From NCBI GenBank assembly GCA_030740435.1, contig JASLXG010000088.1, forward strand, positions 1 to 33,823: a DNA stretch of 33,823 bases, written 5' to 3'. The notes beneath the pieces are model-generated. The model worked only from the letters and a program-made list of their open reading frames with translations, did not search any database and had not been told where the DNA came from. Below, piece by piece: positions 11,674 to 25,151 of this stretch (position 1 is its first letter; each line of letters begins with the position of its first letter). This DNA comes from Alphaproteobacteria bacterium. Its GTDB lineage: Bacteria > Pseudomonadota > Alphaproteobacteria > UBA2966. Position numbers and translations under genes: made by a program.

Positions 11674-12621
11674 ATGGCGGGCGCCAAAGCCGTCCTGGTG
11701 CTGTCGAGCCAACTCGGCGCCGACGACTGGGCCCGGGCGCTCTGTGCCGCCGATCCCGAACTGAAAGTGCGGGTTTGGCCCGAGGTGGGCGATCCGGGCG
11801 ACATCGACGTGATCATCGCCTGGGCGCCGGAACCCGGCCAACTCCTGGGGTTCCCGAACCTCAAGGCCATCCTTTCGCTGGGCGCCGGGGTCGATCAGGT
11901 GCTCGGCCTTCCCGACCTGGCGGAGCTCGCCCATGTGCCACTCTGCCGCACCGTCGACGACGGCCTCAGCCTGGGCATGACGCACTACGTGCTGCTGCAC
12001 GTGCTGCGCTACCACCGGCGTGCGCCCGAGCTCGAAGCCATGCAACGCGGCCACGAGTGGCGTTTTCTGGTGGCCGATGCGGCGGCCGAGACCAGCGTCG
12101 GCATCATGGGCTTGGGCGAGATGGGCGGCCTGGCGGCCGAGAAGCTGGTCGATCTGGGATTCGCGGTCCGCGGCTGGAGCCGATCGCAAAAGCAGCTTGC
12201 CGGCATCGATTGCTTCGCCGGGGCCCAGGGCCTCGGCCCCTTCCTCGCCGGCACGCGAATTCTTGTCGTGCTGCTGCCCCTGACGGCCCAGACCCGCGAC
12301 ATCGTCAACGCAGAAACGCTGGGCCAATTGCCCCAGGGCGCCTATCTCATCGCCGCCGGACGCGGCGGCCACCTGGTCGAGGCGGACGTGCTGGCGGCGC
12401 TCGACGAGGGCCAACTGGCCCACGCCACGCTGGACGTCTTCAACAGCGAACCGCTGCCCACTGAGAGCCCCTTCTGGGACCACCCCAGGGTCACGGTAAC
12501 GCCCCACAACGCCAGCGATTCGGCGCCCGGCCAGGTGGTGCCGAAGTTGCTCGAAAACATCCACCGCGCCCGGGCCGGCCAGGCGCTGCTCAACCAGGTC
12601 GATCGTCGGCGCGGGTATTAG
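11674..12621 (+). CDS. 2-hydroxyacid dehydrogenase, GhrA-like (glyoxylate/hydroxypyruvate reductase A)
   Basis: This 315-residue protein is a D-isomer-specific 2-hydroxyacid dehydrogenase. It shows the nucleotide-binding GLGEMG at residues 146-151 and the catalytic trio Arg230, Glu259 and His278 ('TPHNAS'). Arg at 168-170 (GWSR) after the second beta strand favours NADP(H). Length and the 'LSLGAGVDQVL' stretch fit the GhrA subgroup, which reduces glyoxylate and hydroxypyruvate in the cytosol; the exact substrate is inferred. It starts two bases after the yejF-type stop, so it is probably the last gene of that transcript, although a link to peptide import is not obvious. Its 3' end overlaps the convergent kinase gene by four bases. 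Confidence 0.82.
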   Translation: MAGAKAVLVLSSQLGADDWARALCAADPELKVRVWPEVGDPGDIDVIIAWAPEPGQLLGFPNLKAILSLGAGVDQVLGLPDLAELAHVPLCRTVDDGLSLGMTHYVLLHVLRYHRRAPELEAMQRGHEWRFLVADAAAETSVGIMGLGEMGGLAAEKLVDLGFAVRGWSRSQKQLAGIDCFAGAQGLGPFLAGTRILVVLLPLTAQTRDIVNAETLGQLPQGAYLIAAGRGGHLVEADVLAALDEGQLAHATLDVFNSEPLPTESPFWDHPRVTVTPHNASDSAPGQVVPKLLENIHRARAGQALLNQVDRRRGY

Positions 12622-15119
12622 CGGCGTGGGGCGGCCGAGCCCTCCACCGGCAAGCGGCAGGTCACGCGGGTGCCGGCGCCGGGGGTGGATTGGAGCTCGA
12701 CGACGCCGCCGTGCAACTCGACGAAGGAGAGCACCAGCGAGAGGCCGAGGCCGGCGCCCGGATTGCGCGCCGTCGTGGTCTGGCCCTTGGTGAATTTTTC
12801 GAACACCCATTCGTGCTGCTCCAGCGGGATGCCTTCGCCGGTGTCGGCGACCCAGATGTCGATCTCGCCGCCATGGCGCCTGGCGCCCAGGGTCACGGTG
12901 GCGCCGCGGCTGGAGAATTTGATGGCGTTGGACAAAAGATTGAACACCACCTGCTTGAGGCGGCGCTGGTCGGCCTCGAGCTGGCCGATCTCGGGCGGCC
13001 AGTCGAATTCCAGCTCCAGGCCGGCGTTCTGCATGCGCTGTTCAACGAGCTTGAGCACCTCGAGCAACACGCCATGGAGGTCGAAGCGGCTCAGCTCCAG
13101 CACCATCTGGCCGGCCTCGATGGTGGCCAGGTCGAGGATGTTGTTGATCAGCGCCAGCAGCGACTCCGACGAATAAAGCGTGCCGCGAACATAGTCGCGC
13201 TGCTGGTCGTTGAGGGCGCCGTAGTATTCGTTGGCCAGGATCTCGTTGAAGCCGATGATGGTGTTGAGCGGCGTGCGCAGCTCGTAACTCACGGTGGCGA
13301 TGAATTCGGTCTTGAGGCGGTCGGCCTCCTCCAGGGCCTCGGCCCGCTCCCGAAGTGCGCGTTCGATGCGCGACGAATCTGTGATGTCGAGGTAGGTGTG
13401 CAGCATGGCGCCGTCGGGCAGCGGCATGGCGGCAAACTGCACCACCACGGCGTCGGGGAGTTCCAGGCGTTCGCTGCGGGGCTCGCGGTCGAACACGCGA
13501 TGCACGATGCGTTCCTTGACCTGGGCCCAATTCTCCTCCGCCCCGGACCCGGCCCAGAGCAAGGCACGGCTGGCCTCGGCCACTTCGCTGACGTGGGGCT
13601 CATTGGCCAGGAACTCGTCGTCGAGCTGCCAGATGCGGGCAAAGCCCGAGTTGTGGAGCTTGAGCCGGCCGTCACCGCCATAGACCGCGACGCCCTCGAA
13701 GAGATGGTTGAGCGTGGCGCGCTGCACCGCCGCCAGGGTGTTGCGTGAGCGTTCCAGCTCGAGTTGGTCGGAAACGTCCTCGTAGATGAACATCAGGCCG
13801 CCGAAGGGGTGGGGCGCCACCACCACCCTCAGCGTGCGGCCGTCGGGCAGGTAGATCTGCTCCTCCTGGGCGGCCAGCAGCGAGGTGTAGAGGTCGAGAA
13901 TGCCGGCCTTGTAGACCGGGAAGTCGGCTTGTTCCGGCAGCCGCCGGCGCTCGCGCAGCATCTCCAGGATTTCGTCGTGGCCGGGCCGTGCCTCGAGCCA
14001 GTCGGCATCGAGCTCCCAGAGCCGGGCGAAGGCGTGATTGAAGAAACGCAAGCGCTTGTCGGGGCCGAAGATGGCGATGGCGCTCTGCAACTGGTCCAAG
14101 AGCTCGGCCTGGGCGTCGAGATGGCGGGCCAATTCGTTGGCCAAGTCTTCGCGGTCGGTGACGTTGCGCGCGAAGCCGGCACTGCCGCCGTCGGCTAGCG
14201 GCAGCTCGATCAGATCGTAGGTGCGGCGCTCGCCGGCCACCACGAAGCGGCGCTGTTCGATCTGGATGCGGCGCTCGGAGGCGGCGCGTTCGGCCAGCGC
14301 CCGGCTGCCGCCGGGGTCGGGATCGAGCTCCAGGCCGGGGTGGGCCAGAGCCGCTTCGCGCGAGGCTTCGACGGCGCTCAGGTAGGCGCTGTTGACCCAG
14401 ACCAGGCTGAGATCGGCGGCCCGGCGCCAGCTTGGCAGCGGCGAGGTTTCGTTGACATCGTGCGGCCCCTCGCCGGCCGAAGTCTTTGGCCCTGTGGCGA
14501 TCGCGCCGCCGGCCACAGGGCCAAAGGCTTCGCCCGGCGCCGGACGGCTGGCGTCGTCGAACCACAGCACATGGGCCACCGAGCCGCCGAGAGGGGTGGC
14601 GGTGCCGCGCACCGTGAAGCGGCGGCCAGCCTCGGCCGCCTCGAGGCCCAGCGAAAAGGGCTGATCGTCCTGGCGCAGCGCCGCTACGGCGTCTTGCAGC
14701 GCGGCGAAGGAAGCGCTGGCGAAATGGCGGCCCAGATCGGCAAAGCCGGCAACCTCGGTGGCGGCGATGCCGAGCTGGGCGGCAAGCCGGCGCGAACAGC
14801 GTTCCCGGCCGTCGGGGCCCCATTCGTAATAGCCCTCGGGAAACGAGGCGAGCACGGCGTGGGCCCGGGCCAGGGCGCTCTCCAGCGCCGCCGCCTCGGC
14901 CCGGGCGCCGACCTCGCGGCGCCGGCGTGCACCCCAGAAGGTGATGGCCACGACCAGCCCGACGACGGCGATCACCACCGCCACGGCCACCACCAGCGCG
15001 GCGGCGGCTGCCGTCGCCGACTGGGCCGCCGTGCTCTCCGCCGCTGCCACAGGTAGCGCCGCCAGCAGCGCCACTAGCACCGCCAACGCTATCGTACGCA
15101 AGGTCGTCAGCCCGCTCAT
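12618..15119 (-). CDS. PAS-domain sensor kinase, DivL-like, with Tyr in place of the phospho-acceptor His
   Basis: This 833-residue protein begins with a signal-like hydrophobic segment (about residues 8-27) and a membrane segment (about 40-62). Low-complexity and PAS-like regions follow, with the clearest PAS domains near 310-430 and 450-560. A HisKA-type dimerisation helix (about 600-665) and a HATPase_c domain (about 705-825) complete it. In the H box the sequence reads VSYELRTPLN: Tyr612 (TAC, plus-strand 13284-13286) replaces the His that normally takes the phosphate. The N box (FNLLSNAIKFS), G1 (DTGEGIP) and G2 (GAGLGLSL) are intact, so ATP binding is likely. The same substitution defines Caulobacter DivL, which controls the kinase CckA. 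Placement beside ahcY supports that identity. The coding sequence also holds an in-frame inverted repeat at 14471-14539. A true DivL orthologue is likely but not proven. Confidence 0.85.
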   Translation of the reverse strand: MSGLTTLRTIALAVLVALLAALPVAAAESTAAQSATAAAAALVVAVAVVIAVVGLVVAITFWGARRRREVGARAEAAALESALARAHAVLASFPEGYYEWGPDGRERCSRRLAAQLGIAATEVAGFADLGRHFASASFAALQDAVAALRQDDQPFSLGLEAAEAGRRFTVRGTATPLGGSVAHVLWFDDASRPAPGEAFGPVAGGAIATGPKTSAGEGPHDVNETSPLPSWRRAADLSLVWVNSAYLSAVEASREAALAHPGLELDPDPGGSRALAERAASERRIQIEQRRFVVAGERRTYDLIELPLADGGSAGFARNVTDREDLANELARHLDAQAELLDQLQSAIAIFGPDKRLRFFNHAFARLWELDADWLEARPGHDEILEMLRERRRLPEQADFPVYKAGILDLYTSLLAAQEEQIYLPDGRTLRVVVAPHPFGGLMFIYEDVSDQLELERSRNTLAAVQRATLNHLFEGVAVYGGDGRLKLHNSGFARIWQLDDEFLANEPHVSEVAEASRALLWAGSGAEENWAQVKERIVHRVFDREPRSERLELPDAVVVQFAAMPLPDGAMLHTYLDITDSSRIERALRERAEALEEADRLKTEFIATVSYELRTPLNTIIGFNEILANEYYGALNDQQRDYVRGTLYSSESLLALINNILDLATIEAGQMVLELSRFDLHGVLLEVLKLVEQRMQNAGLELEFDWPPEIGQLEADQRRLKQVVFNLLSNAIKFSSRGATVTLGARRHGGEIDIWVADTGEGIPLEQHEWVFEKFTKGQTTTARNPGAGLGLSLVLSFVELHGGVVELQSTPGAGTRVTCRLPVEGSAAPRR
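14471..14539. repeat. Inverted repeat inside the divL-like coding sequence
   Basis: The 28-base arm 14471-14498 is the reverse complement of 14512-14539 except at two positions, with a 13-base spacer. It is translated in frame and adds a Gly/Ala/Pro-rich stretch (about residues 194-217) between folded parts of the kinase, with no stop codon. It resembles a palindromic element inserted into a tolerant linker, as in Rickettsia palindromic elements, but no second copy is seen here. Confidence 0.7.
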
Positions 15120-15262: not shown

Positions 15263-16555
<1,293 letters not shown>

Positions 16556-16933: not shown

Positions 16934-18709
16934 CTAAAAGGCATTGAGATCATCGAGCATGGCGACGATGCGGCCTGTGTCGTGCTGCTCCAAAATGCTT
17001 TGCGAACGCCGTGTCGCCTCGCTCACGTCAAGCGCGTGAATGCGCTGCTTGACGCGCGGCAAGGCCGTCGCCGCCATGCTCAGATCGCGCAGCCCCAGCC
17101 CCAGCAGCAGCGCCGTCAGGCGTGGCTCGCCGGCCATCTCGCCGCAGATGTTGATGGGAATGGCGGCCCTATGGGCGGCCTCGATGCTGTGGCCGACCAG
17201 GCGGATGACGGCCGGATGCAGGGAATTGAACTGGGCCGCCATCTGCTCGTCGGAGCGATCGATGGCCAGCGTGTACATGGTAAGATCGTTGGTGCCGATG
17301 GAGAAGAAATCGGCCACCTCGGCCAGGCCGTCGGCGGCGATGGCGGCGGCCGGCACCTCGATCAGCACGCCCAGCGGCGGCAGCGGCGCGGCGATGGCCT
17401 GGCCCTGGCGCTTGAGCCGCCGCGCCACCCGCTTGAGTACCTGACGCACCTGCAGCACCTCGCCCGGCGTGGTGATCATGGGCAGCAGAATGCGCACCGG
17501 GCCATGGGCGCCGGCCCGCAGGATGGCGGCGAGCTGGTCCTCGAGCAGCGAAGGCAGCTTGAGCGAGAGCCGGATGGCCCTCAGCCCGAGCGCCGGATTG
17601 GCGCTGGCGGCAAAGTGCTGGCCCAGGGCCGGGGCCAGCTTTTCGCCGCCCACATCCAGCGTGCGGATAGTGACGGGCCGCCCCGACATGCCCTCGACCA
17701 GGGCCGAGAGCGCCGTGTACTGCTCGTCCTGGCTGGGCAGATCGTCGCGGTTCATGAAGAAGAACTCGCTGCGCAAGAGGCCGATACCGGCCGCCCCCAC
17801 CTGGTTGACCATGTCGAGCTCGAGGGGCAATTCGAGGTTGGCTTGCAGCGTCACCTCGACGCCGTCGCGGCTGCGCGCCGGCAGGTCGCGCAGGCGCTCC
17901 AGCAGGCGCTTCTCGCGGGCCAGTTCCTGACGCCGCTGGCGAAAGCGGGCCCGGGTGCGGCTCGAGGGGTTGACGACGATGCGGCCCCGGCCGCCATCGA
18001 TCACCACGGCGTCGCCGGTCTTGACCGCCGCCACCACGCCGGCCGCCCCCAGCACCGCCGGCAGTCCCAGCGAGCGGGCGACGATGGCGGTATGGCTCTC
18101 GGCGCCGCCCAGCGCCGTGGCGAAGCCGGTGATGCGGGCCGGGTCCATCAGTGCCGTGTCGGCCGGCGTGATTTCCTCGGCGATCACCACGGTGCCTTCG
18201 GGCAGGCCGCTGAGTGCCTTGTAGGGCGTGTTGGTGAGGCTGCGGATGAGGCGCTGGCCCACGTCGTTGATGTCCTGCACCCTTCCTGCCAGGTAGGGGT
18301 CGCCGATGGTCGCAAAGCTTTGCCCGATGTCGGCCACCTCGGCCTGCACCGCGGCCTCGGCGTTGATGCGCTGGCGGCCGATGCGCTCTTCGACGCCGCG
18401 CACCAGGCGCGAGCCCGAGAGCATCTGCATGTTGGCCTCGAGGATATAGCCGAGCTCCTCGCCCGCCGCCCCCGAGAGCCGCCGGGCCTTCTCTTGCAAC
18501 TTGCCCATCTGGCGCAGGCTATAGGCCACGGCCTCGTTGAAGCGGCGGCATTCGGCCGCCACCTGGGCGGCGCCGATGCCGTATTCGGGCACCTGGCTGA
18601 GCCGCTGGTCGACCACGAAGGCGCGGCCGCTGGCGATGCCCGGCGCCACGCCGTGACCCTCGACGATGCGCTCGCTCAGCCGGCGCCGCCCGCGGCCCTC
18701 AGTCTTCAT
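16934..18709 (-). CDS. ptsI: Phosphotransferase system enzyme I
   Basis: This 591-residue EI takes phosphate from phosphoenolpyruvate and passes it to HPr. The phosphorylated His is His206 in 'GGAESHTAIVARSLGLP'. The PEP-binding barrel shows 'LLRSEFFFM', 'TLDVGGEK', 'PALGLRAIR' and the catalytic Cys522 in 'NICGEMAGEP'. Length and motifs fit the ordinary EI; there is no N-terminal GAF domain, so it is not the PtsP (nitrogen) form by architecture. It overlaps ptsH by 11 bases. No EIIB, EIIC or EIID gene is nearby, so it probably feeds a regulatory cascade. Two ptsI-type starts near 18709 are possible; the ATG chosen gives 'MKTEGRGRRR' before the conserved 'GHGVAPGIASG'. Confidence 0.93.
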   Translation of the reverse strand: MKTEGRGRRRLSERIVEGHGVAPGIASGRAFVVDQRLSQVPEYGIGAAQVAAECRRFNEAVAYSLRQMGKLQEKARRLSGAAGEELGYILEANMQMLSGSRLVRGVEERIGRQRINAEAAVQAEVADIGQSFATIGDPYLAGRVQDINDVGQRLIRSLTNTPYKALSGLPEGTVVIAEEITPADTALMDPARITGFATALGGAESHTAIVARSLGLPAVLGAAGVVAAVKTGDAVVIDGGRGRIVVNPSSRTRARFRQRRQELAREKRLLERLRDLPARSRDGVEVTLQANLELPLELDMVNQVGAAGIGLLRSEFFFMNRDDLPSQDEQYTALSALVEGMSGRPVTIRTLDVGGEKLAPALGQHFAASANPALGLRAIRLSLKLPSLLEDQLAAILRAGAHGPVRILLPMITTPGEVLQVRQVLKRVARRLKRQGQAIAAPLPPLGVLIEVPAAAIAADGLAEVADFFSIGTNDLTMYTLAIDRSDEQMAAQFNSLHPAVIRLVGHSIEAAHRAAIPINICGEMAGEPRLTALLLGLGLRDLSMAATALPRVKQRIHALDVSEATRRSQSILEQHDTGRIVAMLDDLNAF

Positions 18710-18998
18710 CGAACTTGCCCTCCACCAGCGCCTCGAGGGCGTCGAGCACGGCCTCGGCCTGGTTGCCGCTGGCCCTCAGCTCGAGGCTGCTGCCGGGCCC
18801 GGCCGCCAGCATCATCAGGCCCAGGATCGATAGCCCCGAGACCTCGTGGTCGTCCTTCTTCACCCGCACCTCGGCCTCGAACCGGCCGGCCAGCTTGACG
18901 AAGCGGGCGGCGGCCCGGGCATGCAGCCCGAGGCGGTTGGCGATGACCACGCGGCGGCTGAGCTGCGCGGGCGGGGCTTTCCCGGGTACCTGGTTCAC
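18699..18998 (-). CDS. ptsH: HPr phosphocarrier protein
   Basis: This 99-residue HPr has His26 in 'GLHARAAARF', phosphorylated by EI, and Ser57 in 'LSILGLMML', 31 residues later as in E. coli HPr (His15/Ser46). Ser57 is the expected target of the HprK encoded upstream in the same cluster, so both phosphorylation routes are possible. The N-terminus is about ten residues longer than classical HPr. It overlaps ptsI at its 3' end and the EIIA gene at its 5' end (ATGA-type), implying coupled translation. Confidence 0.93.
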   Translation of the reverse strand: MNQVPGKAPPAQLSRRVVIANRLGLHARAAARFVKLAGRFEAEVRVKKDDHEVSGLSILGLMMLAAGPGSSLELRASGNQAEAVLDALEALVEGKFDED

Positions 18999-19420
18999 GT
19001 CTCGCAGCCGGCCAGCAGCTTCGAGGCGACGTTGATGTACTTGCGCCCGGCCTCCTGGGCCGCCGCCACGGCCTGGGCCATGTCGCCCTCGTCGCGCACC
19101 CCGGCCAGCTTGATCAGCATGGGCAGGTTGACGCCGGCCAGGACCTCGACGTTGGCCTGCTCCATGATCGAGATGGCCAGGTTGCAGGGCGTGCCGCCGA
19201 ACATGTCGGTGAGCACGATGACACCGGCGCCGGCGTCGACCTCGGCGACCGCCCGCAGGATGTCCTGGCGGCGCTCCTCCATGTCCTCGTCGGCCGCGAT
19301 GCAGATGGCCCGGGCGGCCCTTTGCGGCCCCACCACGTGCTCGGCGGCGGCCAGGAACTCGGCCGCCAGGCGCCCGTGGGTGACTAGTATCAGGCCGATC
19401 GGCCCTTTGCCTTGGTTCAT
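18995..19420 (-). CDS. PTS EIIA, mannose family (ManX/PtsA-like)
   Basis: This 141-residue protein is a mannose-family EIIA. It starts with 'GLILVTHGRLAAEFL', in which His15 is the phosphorylation site, and contains 'VLTDMFGGTPCNLA', typical of the fold. Only the A domain is present: no IIB domain is fused and no IIC/IID permease is beside it. In alphaproteobacterial clusters of this type the protein is a regulator at the end of the EI-HPr chain. The ATG at 19420 follows the rapZ stop after one base (TGAgATG), and the gene overlaps ptsH by four bases. The frame extends upstream to 19444, but that would add residues outside the family fold. Confidence 0.9.
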   Translation of the reverse strand: MNQGKGPIGLILVTHGRLAAEFLAAAEHVVGPQRAARAICIAADEDMEERRQDILRAVAEVDAGAGVIVLTDMFGGTPCNLAISIMEQANVEVLAGVNLPMLIKLAGVRDEGDMAQAVAAAQEAGRKYINVASKLLAGCET

Positions 19421-19421
19421 C

Positions 19422-20339
19422 TCACTCCACCCGATCCAGTTCACGGTGTCTGAGCGCCACCGGCCAGCCGCCGTGGCGCAAGCGTTGGGCCAGACGCTCG
19501 GCCACGAAGACCGAACGGTGCTGGCCGCCGGTGCAGCCGATGGCCACGGTCAGATAGCTTTTGCCCTCGCGCTGATAATGCGGCAACAAATCACCGATCA
19601 TCTCGCCAAGGCTGGCCATGAAGGGCCCAAAGGCGGCATCGGCGGCGATGAAGGCGGCCACCTCCGGGTCGCGGCCGCTCTGCGGCCGCAGCGTGTCCTG
19701 GTAGTGGGGATTGGTCAGGAAGCGCACATCGAAGACCAGGTCGGCCTCGCGCGGCAATCCCTGGCGGTAGGCGAACGAGGTTAGCGCCACCGTCAGACCG
19801 GGGGTGCGGTCGGGGGCGAAGCGGGCGTCGAGGAACTGGCGCAGCTCGCCAAGCGTCAGCCGCGAGGTGTCGATCACCAGGTCGGCACGTTCGCGCAATG
19901 GCGCCACCAGTTGGCGCTCCAGCTCGATGCCGTCGCTGACCGGGCGGTCGGCGGCCAGGGGGTGACGCCGCCGGGTCTCGGTGAAGCGCCGGCGCAATAT
20001 GTTGTCGTCGCAATCGAGGAACAGCAGCGAGAGCCGCAGGTCGTCGCGGCCCGATGATTCGTCGATCTGGGCCAACAGGCCCTCGGCGCGGAAATCGCGG
20101 GTGCGGCTGTCGATGCCGATGGCCAGCGGCTGGTCGGGCTTCGCCACGGACTCGTCGCCGGGCCACAACAGGCGGCGCAGCAGATATAGCGGCAGGTTGT
20201 CGATGGCCTCGAAGCCGAGGTCCTCCAGCGCCTTCAGCGCCGACGATTTGCCGGCTCCGGAAAGCCCGCTGACCAGCATTACCTGGCGCCGGGCGTCCGT
20301 CTCCGGCGGCACCACGGGCGGCGCCACGGGCGCTGTCAT
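19422..20339 (-). CDS. rapZ: RNase adapter RapZ (P-loop nucleotide-binding protein)
   Basis: This 305-residue member of the RapZ (YvcJ) family has a Walker A motif at residues 25-32 (GLSGAGKS), 'GIDSRTRDF', and the C-terminal 'GCTGGQHRSVFVAE' that marks the family. In E. coli RapZ steers RNase E to the small RNA GlmZ and so controls glucosamine-6-phosphate synthesis; whether the target is the same here is unknown. Its place between hprK and the PTS genes fits alphaproteobacterial gene order. The ATG at 20339 overlaps the hprK stop (ATGA). A Pro/Val-rich tail of about 15 residues precedes the P-loop domain. Confidence 0.93.
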   Translation of the reverse strand: MTAPVAPPVVPPETDARRQVMLVSGLSGAGKSSALKALEDLGFEAIDNLPLYLLRRLLWPGDESVAKPDQPLAIGIDSRTRDFRAEGLLAQIDESSGRDDLRLSLLFLDCDDNILRRRFTETRRRHPLAADRPVSDGIELERQLVAPLRERADLVIDTSRLTLGELRQFLDARFAPDRTPGLTVALTSFAYRQGLPREADLVFDVRFLTNPHYQDTLRPQSGRDPEVAAFIAADAAFGPFMASLGEMIGDLLPHYQREGKSYLTVAIGCTGGQHRSVFVAERLAQRLRHGGWPVALRHRELDRVE

Positions 20340-20761
20340 GATTTCTTTCCGGCCAGGCCGGCGACCGCCAGGCGGATCTTGGCCGGCGTCGAGGCAGCGA
20401 AGGCGGTCAGCCGGTAAAGCGGCAGCGCCACGCCCTCGAAGTCGCGGCTGGCCGCCTCGGGCAGGCGCTCGAGCTCGGCTTCGGGCGCCAGCTCGACCAC
20501 CGCGCCCACCGCCGTTCCGGCACAATGGGGCAGCCGCACGATACCCATGCCGCGCACTTCCAAAAGGCCGCACAAAACCTCGGGCGGTGCCGCATGCAAG
20601 GTGCCGGCGCGGGCTTCCAGCTCGACCTGGTCGTCGGCCACCAGGCAGGCGCCCTGGTCGATCAGCCTGAGCGCCAGATCCGACTTGCCGCTGGCCGAGG
20701 GGCCGCAGAGCAGCACCGCGGTACCGTCGATAGCGACGCAGGTGCCATGGACGAGAACCAT
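20336..20761 (-). CDS. hprK: HPr kinase/phosphorylase, minimal alphaproteobacterial form
   Basis: This protein of about 141 residues contains only the catalytic core of HprK. Walker A is GPSASGKS near residues 20-27, 'VADDQVEL' holds the metal-binding acidic pair, and 'LLEVRGMGIVRLP' matches the core signature. The N-terminal domain of Gram-positive HprK (roughly half the length) is absent, as is usual in Alphaproteobacteria. It should phosphorylate HPr on Ser57. The start is uncertain: the ATG at 20761 gives MVLVHGTCVAIDG, while the frame continues to a TTG at 20797; neither has a good ribosome-binding site. The stop overlaps the rapZ start. Confidence 0.88.
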   Translation of the reverse strand: MVLVHGTCVAIDGTAVLLCGPSASGKSDLALRLIDQGACLVADDQVELEARAGTLHAAPPEVLCGLLEVRGMGIVRLPHCAGTAVGAVVELAPEAELERLPEAASRDFEGVALPLYRLTAFAASTPAKIRLAVAGLAGKKS

Positions 20762-20836
20762 GCCGCGAGGGTGCGCCAGGGCCGGCGCCGGAGTCAATTG
20801 CCGGTCAATCGGGCGGAAAGTTCTTAACCCGCATTA

Positions 20837-22477
20837 TCAAACCGGCAGCTCGACCACGATTCGGGCGCCCACCACCGCGCCCTCGGCGTCATGGCGGTTT
20901 TCGGCCCAGATCGTGCCGCCGTGAGCCTCGACGATCTGGCGCGAGATCGAGAGCCCGAGGCCGGAATGGCGGCCGAAGGCCTCGCCCTCGGGGCGTTCGC
21001 TGTAGAAGCGCTCGAAGACCGCCTCGAGTTTTTCCTCGGGCAGGCCCGGCCCCCGGTCCTCGACCAGCAGGCGCACCCGGTCGTCGCGGCGTTGCAGGCC
21101 GAGCTCGATGACGCTGTCCGGGGGACTGAACGTGAAGGCGTTGTCGAGCAGATTGCGCAGCACCTGGCCGAGACGGCCTTCGAGGCCCGGCACGACGTAG
21201 TCCCCGGGTGCTGTAGCGGCGATGTTCAGATCGATTTCGGGTCGGCCCTCCGTGCGCTCGATTTCGACCAGGGTGCGGGCCAGGGCTTCGAGGTCGACCG
21301 GCGCCGCCTCGGCCCGTGCCAGTTCGGCATCGAGACGCGAGGCGTCGGCGATATCGCCGATCAGGCGGTCGAGGCGCTGCACGTCGTCGGCGATGATGGC
21401 CATCAGGCGCTGCTGCTGGGCCGGCTCGGGGCCCCGTTCCAGGGTCTCGACGGCGCTGCGGATCGAGGTGATGGGGTTGCGCACCTCGTGGGCCACGTCG
21501 GCGGCGAAGGCCTCGATGGCCTCGAGCCGGTCGTAGAGCACCGCCGTCATGTTGCCGAGCACCGCCGAGAGCTCGCCGATCTCGTCGCGCCGGCTCGAGA
21601 AGTCGGGGATGGCGGCGCGCTGGCCGGGCCGGCGGCGCACCATCTCGGCCGCTGCCGCGAGTTGGCGGATGGGCCTGACGATGGTGCCGGCCAGATAGAG
21701 CGAGAGCAGTACCGTCACCCCCAGCGCCAGCGCGAAGACCTGGCCGATGGCCAGTTGCAGCTGGCGCACGCTTTGCTGGATGTCGGCGCCACCGGCCGTC
21801 AGCACCAGCGCGCCGAGCACCCGCTTGAAGCGCTGCACCGGCATGGCGACGCTGACGATGAGGCCGCCGTCCTGGGTTTCGCGCACGCTTGAGGCGGCGT
21901 GGCCGGCCAGGGCGTGCCCCAGTTCCTCGCTATAAAGGGCGCGCAATTCGAGCTGTTCGCGGTAGGGCGGGTAGCTTTCCCAGCCCGGCATGGTGCGGGT
22001 CAACCATTCAGCCCAGCGGGCCAGGAATTCGAGCGCCGGCAAGTCGCCGCCGGGCAGCGGTAGCGGCAACATCTCGACCCGGCGCCCGGCGGCACCCAGG
22101 CGGCGACTGTCGGCCATCACCAGGGCGCGGCTATCAAAGAGCAGCGCCCTGGTTCGCTGCGTCCTCACCAGACGGCGCAAGAATTCCGCCGATAGCGCGG
22201 CATCGAGGCGGCGCCCGCCGGGCGGCCCGGCCACGGCCCCGGCCCCGATGGCGCCGGCGATGATGCCACTTTCGATCTCCAGGGCGGCGATCTTGGCCTC
22301 GATCAGGCCCTCGCGGTATTGGTCGAGAAACAACAAGCCGCCGAGCAGGATGCCCAGCGCCAGCACGTTGATGCCGAGGATGCGCAGCGTCAGCCGCGAG
22401 AGCCGGCGTTCGTGCCACTTTTGCACCTTGGGCAGCGGCGTCGCTGTCGTTGCCTGGCCCTCGCTTGGCTGCTCCAT
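20837..22477 (-). CDS. chvG: Sensor histidine kinase ChvG
   Basis: This 546-residue inner-membrane kinase has a membrane segment at about residues 30-51, a periplasmic sensor domain to about 245, and a second membrane segment at about 246-268. HAMP, a HisKA domain with phospho-accepting His330 in 'VAHEVRNPITS', and a HATPase_c domain with N box 'LRNLLDNAFTFS', 'VEDRGPGLP' and 'HSGLGLSIS' follow. It pairs with the chvI product just upstream. ChvG/ExoS-ChvI in Alphaproteobacteria senses acid and envelope stress. The ATG at 22477 gives the usual basic N-terminus; no strong ribosome-binding site is seen. A 34-base inverted repeat lies in the leader between chvI and this start. Confidence 0.9.
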   Translation of the reverse strand: MEQPSEGQATTATPLPKVQKWHERRLSRLTLRILGINVLALGILLGGLLFLDQYREGLIEAKIAALEIESGIIAGAIGAGAVAGPPGGRRLDAALSAEFLRRLVRTQRTRALLFDSRALVMADSRRLGAAGRRVEMLPLPLPGGDLPALEFLARWAEWLTRTMPGWESYPPYREQLELRALYSEELGHALAGHAASSVRETQDGGLIVSVAMPVQRFKRVLGALVLTAGGADIQQSVRQLQLAIGQVFALALGVTVLLSLYLAGTIVRPIRQLAAAAEMVRRRPGQRAAIPDFSSRRDEIGELSAVLGNMTAVLYDRLEAIEAFAADVAHEVRNPITSIRSAVETLERGPEPAQQQRLMAIIADDVQRLDRLIGDIADASRLDAELARAEAAPVDLEALARTLVEIERTEGRPEIDLNIAATAPGDYVVPGLEGRLGQVLRNLLDNAFTFSPPDSVIELGLQRRDDRVRLLVEDRGPGLPEEKLEAVFERFYSERPEGEAFGRHSGLGLSISRQIVEAHGGTIWAENRHDAEGAVVGARIVVELPV

Positions 22478-22493
22478 GTTATTAATTGGACTT

Positions 22494-22584
22494 CGCCCGG
22501 CCGCCCGCTCCCCCTCCCAACCAGCCACAGGTTACCACAGGGATTATTGATGGCTGGTTGGGAGCGGCAGCGGGCGGCCGGGCG
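22494..22584. repeat. 34-base inverted repeat between chvI and chvG
   Basis: Bases 22494-22527 are the reverse complement of 22551-22584 with two mismatches, separated by 23 bases. Each arm holds CGCCCGGCCGCCCGCT and TCCCAACCAGCCA in its reading. The RNA would fold into a very stable hairpin between the chvI stop (22598) and the chvG start (22477). No U tract follows, so it is not a typical terminator; it may protect or separate the two messages, or be a REP-like element. Confidence 0.8.
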
Positions 22585-22597
22585 ATCCTCGCAAGCA

Positions 22598-23296
22598 TCA
22601 GACCTCGCGGTAACGGTAGCCGACGCCGTAAAGCGTTTCGATGTTGGCGAATTCGGCATCGACTTCGCGCAACTTGCGACGCAGGCGCTTGATGTGGCTG
22701 TCGATGGTGCGGTCGTCGACGTAGACGTTGTCCTGGTAGGCCACGTCCATCAACTGGTCGCGGCTCTTGACGTGCCCCGGGCGCTGGGCCAGGGCCGTCA
22801 GGACCAGGAATTCGGTCACCGTCAGGCGCACCGGCTGGCCCCGCCAGGTGCAGAGATGCCGGGCCGGGTCGAGGGTGAGGTCGCCGCGCACCACGGCCTT
22901 TTCGGCAGCCTCGAGGTCGTCGGCCTGGGCCGCCTCGGCGCGGCGCAGCAGGGCCCGGATGCGTTCGATCAAGAGGCGCAGCGAGAAGGGTTTGCGGATG
23001 TAGTCGTCGGCCCCCATCTTGAGGCCCAGCACCTCGTCAAGCTCGTCGTCCTTGGAGGTGAGAAAGATCGCCGGCACGTCGCTGTGGCGGCGCAGCCGGG
23101 TCAAAAGTTCCATGCCGTCGAGGCGCGGCATCTTGATATCGAGCACCACCAGGTCGACCGGCTGGGCGCCCAGGCCGCGCAAGGCCTCGGCGCCGTCATG
23201 GTAGCTGCGCACCCGAAAACCCTCGGCCTCCAGCGCCATGGCCAGCGAGGCCAACAGGTTGCGGTCGTCATCGACCAGGGCGATGGTTGCGCTCAT
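22598..23296 (-). CDS. chvI: Response regulator ChvI
   Basis: This 232-residue OmpR/PhoB-type regulator has an N-terminal receiver domain with the acidic pocket Asp10/Asp11, phospho-accepting Asp53 (VLDIKMP), Thr80 and Lys102 (RKPF). A C-terminal winged-helix DNA-binding domain ('[19 protein letters not shown]', '[10 protein letters not shown]') follows. The motifs and the neighbouring chvG identify it as ChvI, the envelope-stress regulator. AGGAGG lies 10 bases before the ATG at 23296, which fixes the start; that same site can pair in a small hairpin. It is the first gene of the long minus-strand cluster. The upstream promoter region is partly occupied by a mobile-element remnant from 23374. 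Confidence 0.93.
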
Positions 23297-23305
23297 GACG
23301 GATTT

Positions 23306-23321
23306 GCCTCCTGGGGGAGGC
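23306..23321 (-). promoter_or_regulatory. chvI: Hairpin covering the chvI ribosome-binding site
   Basis: On minus-strand RNA, GCCUCC (23321-23316) pairs with GGAGGC (23311-23306) around the four-base loop CCCA. The second arm contains most of the AGGAGG Shine-Dalgarno for chvI. Six G-C-rich pairs so close to the start codon could limit translation. Confidence 0.5.
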
Positions 23322-23379
23322 GATTCTAGGCCGCCGTCGGCGTTGTGCCAAACGCCAATCGTGCAGGTGGTTACTAGAG

Positions 23380-23391
23380 CCGCATTTCTCA
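23380..23391 (+). repeat. Short terminal-type motif CCGCATTTCTCA, copy 1
   Basis: CCGCATTTCTCA occurs here directly before the presumed 5' end of the intron remnant. The inverted copy is at 23876-23887 and a third, direct copy is at 33629-33641 within CCCGCATTTCTCA. It may be the end of an insertion element interrupted by the intron. Family unknown. Confidence 0.5.
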
Positions 23392-23880
23392 GTGCGCCCC
23401 GACGGCGCATGTCACCGGTGGAGGAAGGATCCACCCGAGCAGTAGTCGGTTTGACTTGGTAGCCGGCAGGCGGTTTCGTTGGGCAACCAACGCGGGGCCG
23501 AAGCCCTGCGACAAAGGCCGCCTAGGGCGGTTGAGCGAGCTTGCGGGCCGTAATTAGAGTGAGGCCTGAGCAGGCCTCGAAAGTGAAGTCGTGGACGCCG
23601 ACCCGCCTGAGATTCGGGGAAGGCCGCGCGGGACGGGGAAGCAAACCGACGAGGGCACCCGTTCCGGTCCACCGGGATAGTTGGCACGGCACGCAGGCGG
23701 GCACAAAGGGTGATGGGGCGGCTGGGCTTGGCCTTGAGCGAAGCCAAAAACGACGGTCGTGAACGCCCGGCAGGGAAGCTTCGACTTCCTCGGCTATACG
23801 TTCGGCCCGCACCGCTATCGCAAGGATGGCCATTGGTATCTTGGCGCCAGTCCGTCGACGCAGGCCGGGACCCAATGAGA
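23392..23880 (+). pseudogene. Group II intron remnant: 5' ribozyme-like part joined to a broken reverse transcriptase fragment
   Basis: The stretch beginning GTGCGCCCC at 23392 and running to about 23640 reads like the 5' domain of a bacterial group II intron. It is GC-rich and structured, with no credible protein. From 23713 a reverse-transcriptase/maturase C-terminal piece appears: MGRLGLALSEAK, then after a frameshift in a run of five A residues near 23750, 'TTVVNARQGSFDFLGYTFGP' followed by 'HRYRKDGHWYLGAS'. These match the conserved maturase pattern 'ESFDFLGYTFGP'. A complete intron of this type is about 2 kb; here it is under 0.5 kb, so most of the enzyme and the 3' ribozyme domains are missing. 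The last codons, after about 23850, belong to a separate repeat end. It is dead as a mobile element. Confidence 0.6.
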
Positions 23881-23890: not shown

Positions 23891-25151
23891 AATGCCAATG
23901 CTGTTCACTTTGCGATCGTGATATGATTGGCGTAGGCGATTCGGGGCGATGGCGGCGCGTTGGACTGACGGTATCGGATGGGGAATTTGCCCACCTTTCT
24001 CTTGACGGCGCGGGGATTTCTGCGGCCTCGGTTGGAGACCACGCGCTCTTCGAGGATCTCCGCCAGCACGGCCTCATGGAAGGCGAGCCTATGCTGAGGG
24101 GGGAATAGCGGTCTCGATCTCCCAGCGTTCCTGGTGGAGCGCCGCCAGCTCCCGTGCCGGGGCTTCGGCCGGATCGGTGATGGTGGTGATCAGGCGGTAG
24201 AGGGGCTCGGCCCCGGCGATGCCCTTCAGGCGGTACTCGATCACCCGCACCAGCCGCCCCTGACGGTCCTGGCGGCGATCCTTGGCCGAGGCATAGATGG
24301 TGCTCAGATAGGAACCGTCGGAGAGCCGTTGCTGGCAGGGTGGGATTTGGTTCTTCTCAACCCGCCAGAGCAGCGCTGCCCCCGTCGCCGCGGCCTGGCT
24401 CCAGAGCGCGAAGCTGAAGAAACCGCGATCCGCCAAGCACAACATGTTCGGCTTGAGACGCTCCACCACGGCCTGGGCCAGGGTCTGCTCGCCGCTGGTG
24501 TAGGCGCCCAACTCGGCCCCGAAAAGAACGTGGCTGCCGGTTTTCACCAGGCAGACGAAGCGGAGTTGCGGATAGGCGCTACGCCCGCGCGAGGCACCCG
24601 GACGTCCGAAGGCAGCCACGTTGGCTGCCTCATTGGCCACTTCCTGGGTGCTGCCGTCGATGCTCACCAAGCGCCAGTCTCCATACCACGCCCCTTTCGT
24701 CTCTCGCTGCGCCAGCGGCCCAACGGCTTGCTGGTACAACTGCTTGACCGGCTCCACACCGAGCCGGCTGCGGGCCTGGGAAATCCCCGACTTACCGGCC
24801 ACCGGAACAACCCCAAACGACCACGAGGGCCAGCGCAAGCCCTCCAAAAGACAGCGCAGAACCTCGCCGTAGGAAGCCTCCGCGTAGAGCGCCAGGGCGA
24901 TGACGTAGTACATCATCACCGGCGCCGGAAGCTGCCGCTCCCGCAGACTGGCCCGACCCGTTCGTTCGAGAACCCCGTCAATCAAGTGCCGGGGAAAAGT
25001 CTTGGTGATGACCCCGAGGCTGATGTGGTCCGAAATCCGACTCCCTGCAGGCAATTTGGCCACTGTCCGTGCCATGTCATCCCTTTTATATGGTGGTCAG
25101 AGGGATGCAGTATACCATATCTTGTGTTGAGATGAACAGTATTGGCGCTAG
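23889..25151 (-). mobile_element. IS4-family insertion sequence, decayed
   Basis: The ends are imperfect inverted repeats. Reading inward, the left end is CTAATGCCAATGCTGTTCA and the right end is CTAGCGCCAATACTGTTCA, differing by three transitions. The inner core, GCCAATRCTGTTCA, bounds 23894-25146. The element carries one transposase gene on the minus strand that is broken (see next entry). Its left end touches the repeat end at 23890 and its right end touches the stop codon of the threonine synthase gene. No clean target duplication directly at these ends was found. Confidence 0.75.
23905..25075 (-). pseudogene. IS4-family transposase, internal deletion plus frameshift
   Basis: The N-terminal 328 residues are readable from the ATG at 25075 and carry two DDE Asp residues in 'SIDGSTQEV' and 'CLADRGFFS' and the Glu in 'ERWEIET'. 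Directly after 'ERWEIET' comes 'AIPPSA' and a stop. In the next frame the C-terminus continues as 'LAFHEAVLAEILEERVV', 'GRRNPRAVKRKVGKFPIR' and ends at TGA 23905-23907. In relatives of this IS these C-terminal motifs are separated from 'RWEIE' by some 70-80 residues including the Lys of the YREK signature, as I recall the family. So a block was deleted and the frame shifted by one base near 24085. It cannot make active transposase but its ends might still be moved by a related enzyme. Confidence 0.8.

Follow-up and report, generated by a model that had tools for sequence, protein, structure and literature searches.

A DivL orthologue with tyrosine at the phospho-acceptor position, and the variable fate of its kinase module across Alphaproteobacteria

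DivL is the textbook example of a histidine kinase converted to a sensor, and it modulates the cell-cycle kinase CckA. The Caulobacter crescentus protein combines several PAS domains with a HisKA domain that carries Tyr in a VSYELRTPL box and with a HATPase domain whose boxes are intact (structure 4q20; PMC4211667). In that protein, the substitution R553A disrupts binding of phosphorylated DivK (DivK~P), whereas Y550H does not (PMC4211667). The Tyr was described in 2014 as conserved with one named exception, an Ala in Magnetospirillum (PMC4211667). Rhodobacterales encode a short DivL that lacks the kinase module and occurs in the absence of DivK (PMC2877005, PMC9430884). The two absences were reported always to go together (PMC2877005), with one known exception in which DivK was acquired horizontally (PMC9430884). 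The short form consists of the same PAS part found in the kinase-less relatives described below.

The window analyzed here, a contig of 33,823 nucleotides, encodes a DivL that, unlike the short form, keeps the whole pseudokinase module. The gene (P0001) occupies positions 12618..15119 on the minus strand, which the initial annotation had left unstated, and comprises an ATG start and an 833-residue open reading frame. All features of the protein listed here are on this strand. Behind a signal-like N-terminus lies a transmembrane-like hydrophobic helix (residues ~44-65; 14925..14990), read from the sequence and modeled as a helix at low confidence. A cryptic unit at residues 96-189 (14553..14834) displays a PAS-like order of strands and helices in a weak model (pLDDT ~57-81) and has no Pfam match; it may represent a fourth PAS domain. 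The low-complexity linker that follows (residues 190-226; 14442..14552) had been called unusually short. This description does not hold, as the distance from the conserved G172 to P227 is 55 residues, towards the upper limit of the orthologue range (31-64, median 48, n=134). Three PAS regions are recognized by Pfam: PAS_4 at residues 235-324 (14148..14417), a domain at residues ~340-450 composed of PAS_8 (340-389) and a second PAS_7 stretch (13770..14102), and PAS_7 at residues 470-586 (13362..13712), just past which the kinase-less relatives stop. The HisKA (DHp) domain at residues 603-670 (13110..13313) and the HATPase_c (CA) domain at residues 717-826 (12642..12971) both score above the Pfam cut-offs. 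The AlphaFold model of the full protein, built from a two-row alignment, is poor (mean pLDDT 45) and adds little.

The H box reads VSYELRTPLN. As first noted from the sequence, the acceptor codon is TAC instead of a His codon (13284..13286, minus strand; context gtg agt TAC gag ctg cgc acg ccg), and alignment with 4q20 equates Tyr612 with Caulobacter Tyr550. Three residues on, the CGC codon of Arg615 (13275..13277, minus strand) aligns with the R553 whose role was defined in PMC4211667. Intact N, G1, and G2 boxes follow, with the consensus residues N731, D759-x-G761-x-G763, and G790/G792.

Several lines of evidence support the proposal that this gene is a DivL orthologue. Among solved structures, Caulobacter DivL (4q20) matches the protein best (E 1e-46); the kinase modules align over their full length, Tyr opposite Tyr, and share the VSYELRTPL box. 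A maximum-likelihood tree built from the kinase module (79 rows; bootstrap not fully converged) has a branch with support of 100/100 that separates 4q20, the window protein, and a further 24 DivLs from 53 ordinary histidine kinases, drawn from the window genome and related genomes. This is the HisKA-HATPase comparison that had been suggested as a check; it contained no named PleC or DivJ sequences, and the window protein groups with Caulobacter DivL. Gene order agrees as well. As the initial annotation had stated, divL lies downstream of ahcY (15263..16555, minus strand), a conserved neighbor located directly upstream of divL in 74 Tyr-bearing orthologues, the window gene included. From the tree, the structure match, and the conserved gene order, orthology with DivL is about as firm as sequence permits.

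A similar arrangement is that of Sinorhizobium meliloti, whose homolog lies between ahcY and tsaE and is presumably the DivL studied in PMC11500502. It resembles the window in architecture, acceptor Tyr, directly adjacent ahcY, and a chvG-hprK-PTS cluster further upstream, although identity is 39% over residues 228-832 and the N-terminal part is unmatched by BLAST. Upstream of ahcY, the window carries ptsI, HPr, EIIA, rapZ, hprK, chvG, and chvI (16934..23434, minus strand), which together follow the backbone of the S. meliloti order chvG-hprK-IIA-HPr-ahcY-divL-tsaE with extra genes added. An IS4-type transposase gene adjoins chvI (24089-25075, minus strand). Downstream, tsaE is absent from its usual spot directly behind divL, unlike in C. 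crescentus. Its place is taken by a convergent 2-hydroxyacid dehydrogenase gene (11674-12621, plus strand), the end of which overlaps that of divL by 4 bases. A contig scan with the window protein retrieved a single close full-length relative (L024), which belongs to an independent public metagenome-assembled genome.

Tyrosine occupies the acceptor column of this relative and of other full-length orthologues from the same order (G011) and from other families (G015, G017, G018, and G019). A sequencing or assembly error, for which a single transition from CAC to TAC would suffice, was rejected on this basis; with Tyr present in same-order orthologues and in most orthologues surveyed, such an error is hardly credible. 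It is very improbable that the protein is an active tyrosine kinase or belongs to the ordinary sensor kinases and only resembles DivL. The intact N, G1, and G2 boxes would suit either, and DivL was originally described as a tyrosine kinase, to judge from the title of Wu et al. 1999 as cited in PMC4211667. Against this, the window protein falls within the DivL group at 100/100, and Caulobacter DivL displays neither kinase nor phosphatase activity, its functions in vivo requiring no kinase activity (PMC4211667).

Judged by its sequence, domains, orthology, and genomic context, and by the presence of CckA, ChpT, and CtrA in the genome, the window protein is very probably a membrane-anchored, multi-PAS pseudo-histidine kinase of the DivL type. 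Because the acceptor Tyr cannot become phospho-His, the DHp-CA module would export no phosphate. By analogy with Caulobacter, its most likely role would be to dock and read DivK~P by means of the H-box surface that surrounds Arg615. The PAS domains would then contact CckA and set its balance between kinase and phosphatase activity, which would feed ChpT and CtrA. To judge from the kinase-less relatives, the output would come from the PAS part, with the kinase module as an optional input.

The expected partners were sought in the window genome with partial success. CtrA scores above its curated cut-off, ChpT is present, and CckA is encoded in two overlapping pieces at the ends of contigs C207 and C222. 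Neither DivK nor a PleD above the cut-off was found in the draft (98.6% complete, 236 contigs), so that DivK input is putative in this organism. DivK may truly have been lost, with the transmitter module persisting as an undecayed relic and the PAS part alone controlling CckA. Seven DivK-less genomes at least 90% complete, the window genome among them, do retain Tyr. This reading is nonetheless unlikely. The congener G001 carries DivK beside PleD, the catalytic boxes and Arg615 of the window protein are all intact, and a 236-contig draft that also splits CckA could plausibly have a gap over divK-pleD. A gap in the assembly explains the absence more simply, and true loss is less likely.

The window gene itself is an ordinary DivL, and the comparative result around it is of greater interest. 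A survey of 289 alphaproteobacterial genomes together with the window's order recovered ~166 DivL genes. At the acceptor position Tyr prevails, with His, Phe, Thr, Gln, Cys, Val, Gly, Leu, Arg, Ser, Lys, Glu, or Asp in other genes. Tyr is thus common yet not universal, which qualifies the earlier statement of conservation with one exception (PMC4211667). Seven divL genes bear His. Four of these adjoin ahcY, and the five placed in the kinase tree all group with the DivLs; more than one regain of His is therefore probable. In three cases beside ahcY (L211 in G181, L216 in G277, and L217 in G055), the canonical His sits in an SVSHELRTPLN box with all other boxes intact, and these genes are possibly regained kinases. 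For most genes with other acceptor residues, ahcY is not adjacent, so their orthology is judged from the profile score alone.

The acceptor residue varies with the presence of DivK. Tyr is found in 103 of 116 genomes with a clear DivK, compared with 6 of 32 genomes that are at least 90% complete and lack DivK (7 of 33 when one short row is included). DivK was searched with a Caulobacter sequence as the query; its hits are mostly 68-83% identical and lie next to PleD where checked, indicating that the query worked. The position of Arg615 is more telling. It is Arg in all 113 module-bearing genes from genomes with DivK, even where the acceptor is His, Phe, Val, or Ser, compared with 7 of 18 such genes in DivK-less genomes. 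In raw counts, which include rows related by descent, the association with DivK is strong (Fisher 1e-11 for Arg; 7e-19 for Arg or module loss). With shared descent corrected for, neither Tyr nor Arg was significantly associated with DivK, at the low power offered by 4-10 independent pairs on the DivL tree; these pairs favor the same direction, ~4 to 0.5 at best. In the raw counts, the docking Arg, more than the Tyr, accompanies DivK, and its retention in all 113 genes fits the finding that Y550H keeps and R553A loses DivK~P binding (PMC4211667). The Arg also belongs to the general H box, so constraints other than DivK may contribute to its conservation. The survey further suggests that the transmitter module is retained to serve DivK: genomes with DivK have it intact, and in most of those without DivK it has decayed or been deleted.

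Deletion of the module is seen in the window's own order, sampled with 15 genomes. DivL stops right past the last PAS domain in two genomes of genus g2 (G002, G004) and in seven of family f2 (G007-G010, G012-G014), whereas the window genome (G000) and G011 retain the module. The truncated genes have ahcY upstream wherever the flank is long enough. A split gene was rejected as the source of the truncation, as tblastn detected no histidine kinase remnant in the flanks (best E 0.5). Matches that stop at contig ends (G112, G235, G242, and G288) were not counted as losses, and G236 was likewise set aside. Although the order is monophyletic (99/99), a single clade of its kinase-less members is rejected (AU p 0.008), so the module has been lost at least twice. 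The DivL of G005 is a shorter PAS fragment (L045), also located beside ahcY. In that genome and in G003 and G006 (same family, genus g3), CckA, CtrA, ChpT, and DivK all went undetected.

Genus g2 departs from the published rule on short DivLs. Its two truncated proteins (L040 in G004 and L041 in G002) occur with L075 and L074 in genomes that keep a DivK-PleD pair, and the DivK is 89-90% identical to that of G001 and adjoins PleD, hence inherited and not imported. A short DivL together with an inherited DivK is new, and it qualifies the statement that a kinase-less DivL always accompanies the absence of DivK (PMC2877005), to which an exception was already known (PMC9430884). Truncation beside an inherited DivK-PleD pair would imply that DivK in this genus acts only through other partners.

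With moderate confidence, the alphaproteobacterial DivL module may be regarded as a reader of DivK. On this account, the Arg persists in every genome that retains both DivK and the module, the Tyr drifts even to His, the module is repeatedly eroded or cut when DivK is lost, and one genus of the order has cut it yet kept an inherited DivK-PleD. The repeated deletions, the probable regains of His, and a genus whose DivK has no docking site on DivL constitute natural experiments on the purpose of the module, through which the question of why Tyr is present becomes testable.

Two single genes from the survey complete these observations. The DivL of G016 (L034 / L135) has Cys at the acceptor position (VSCELRTPL), and a weak match to DivK in that genome, 45% identical, is probably not DivK. 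In G140 (74% complete), the H box of L280 is erased and its CA domain eroded, with DivK present.
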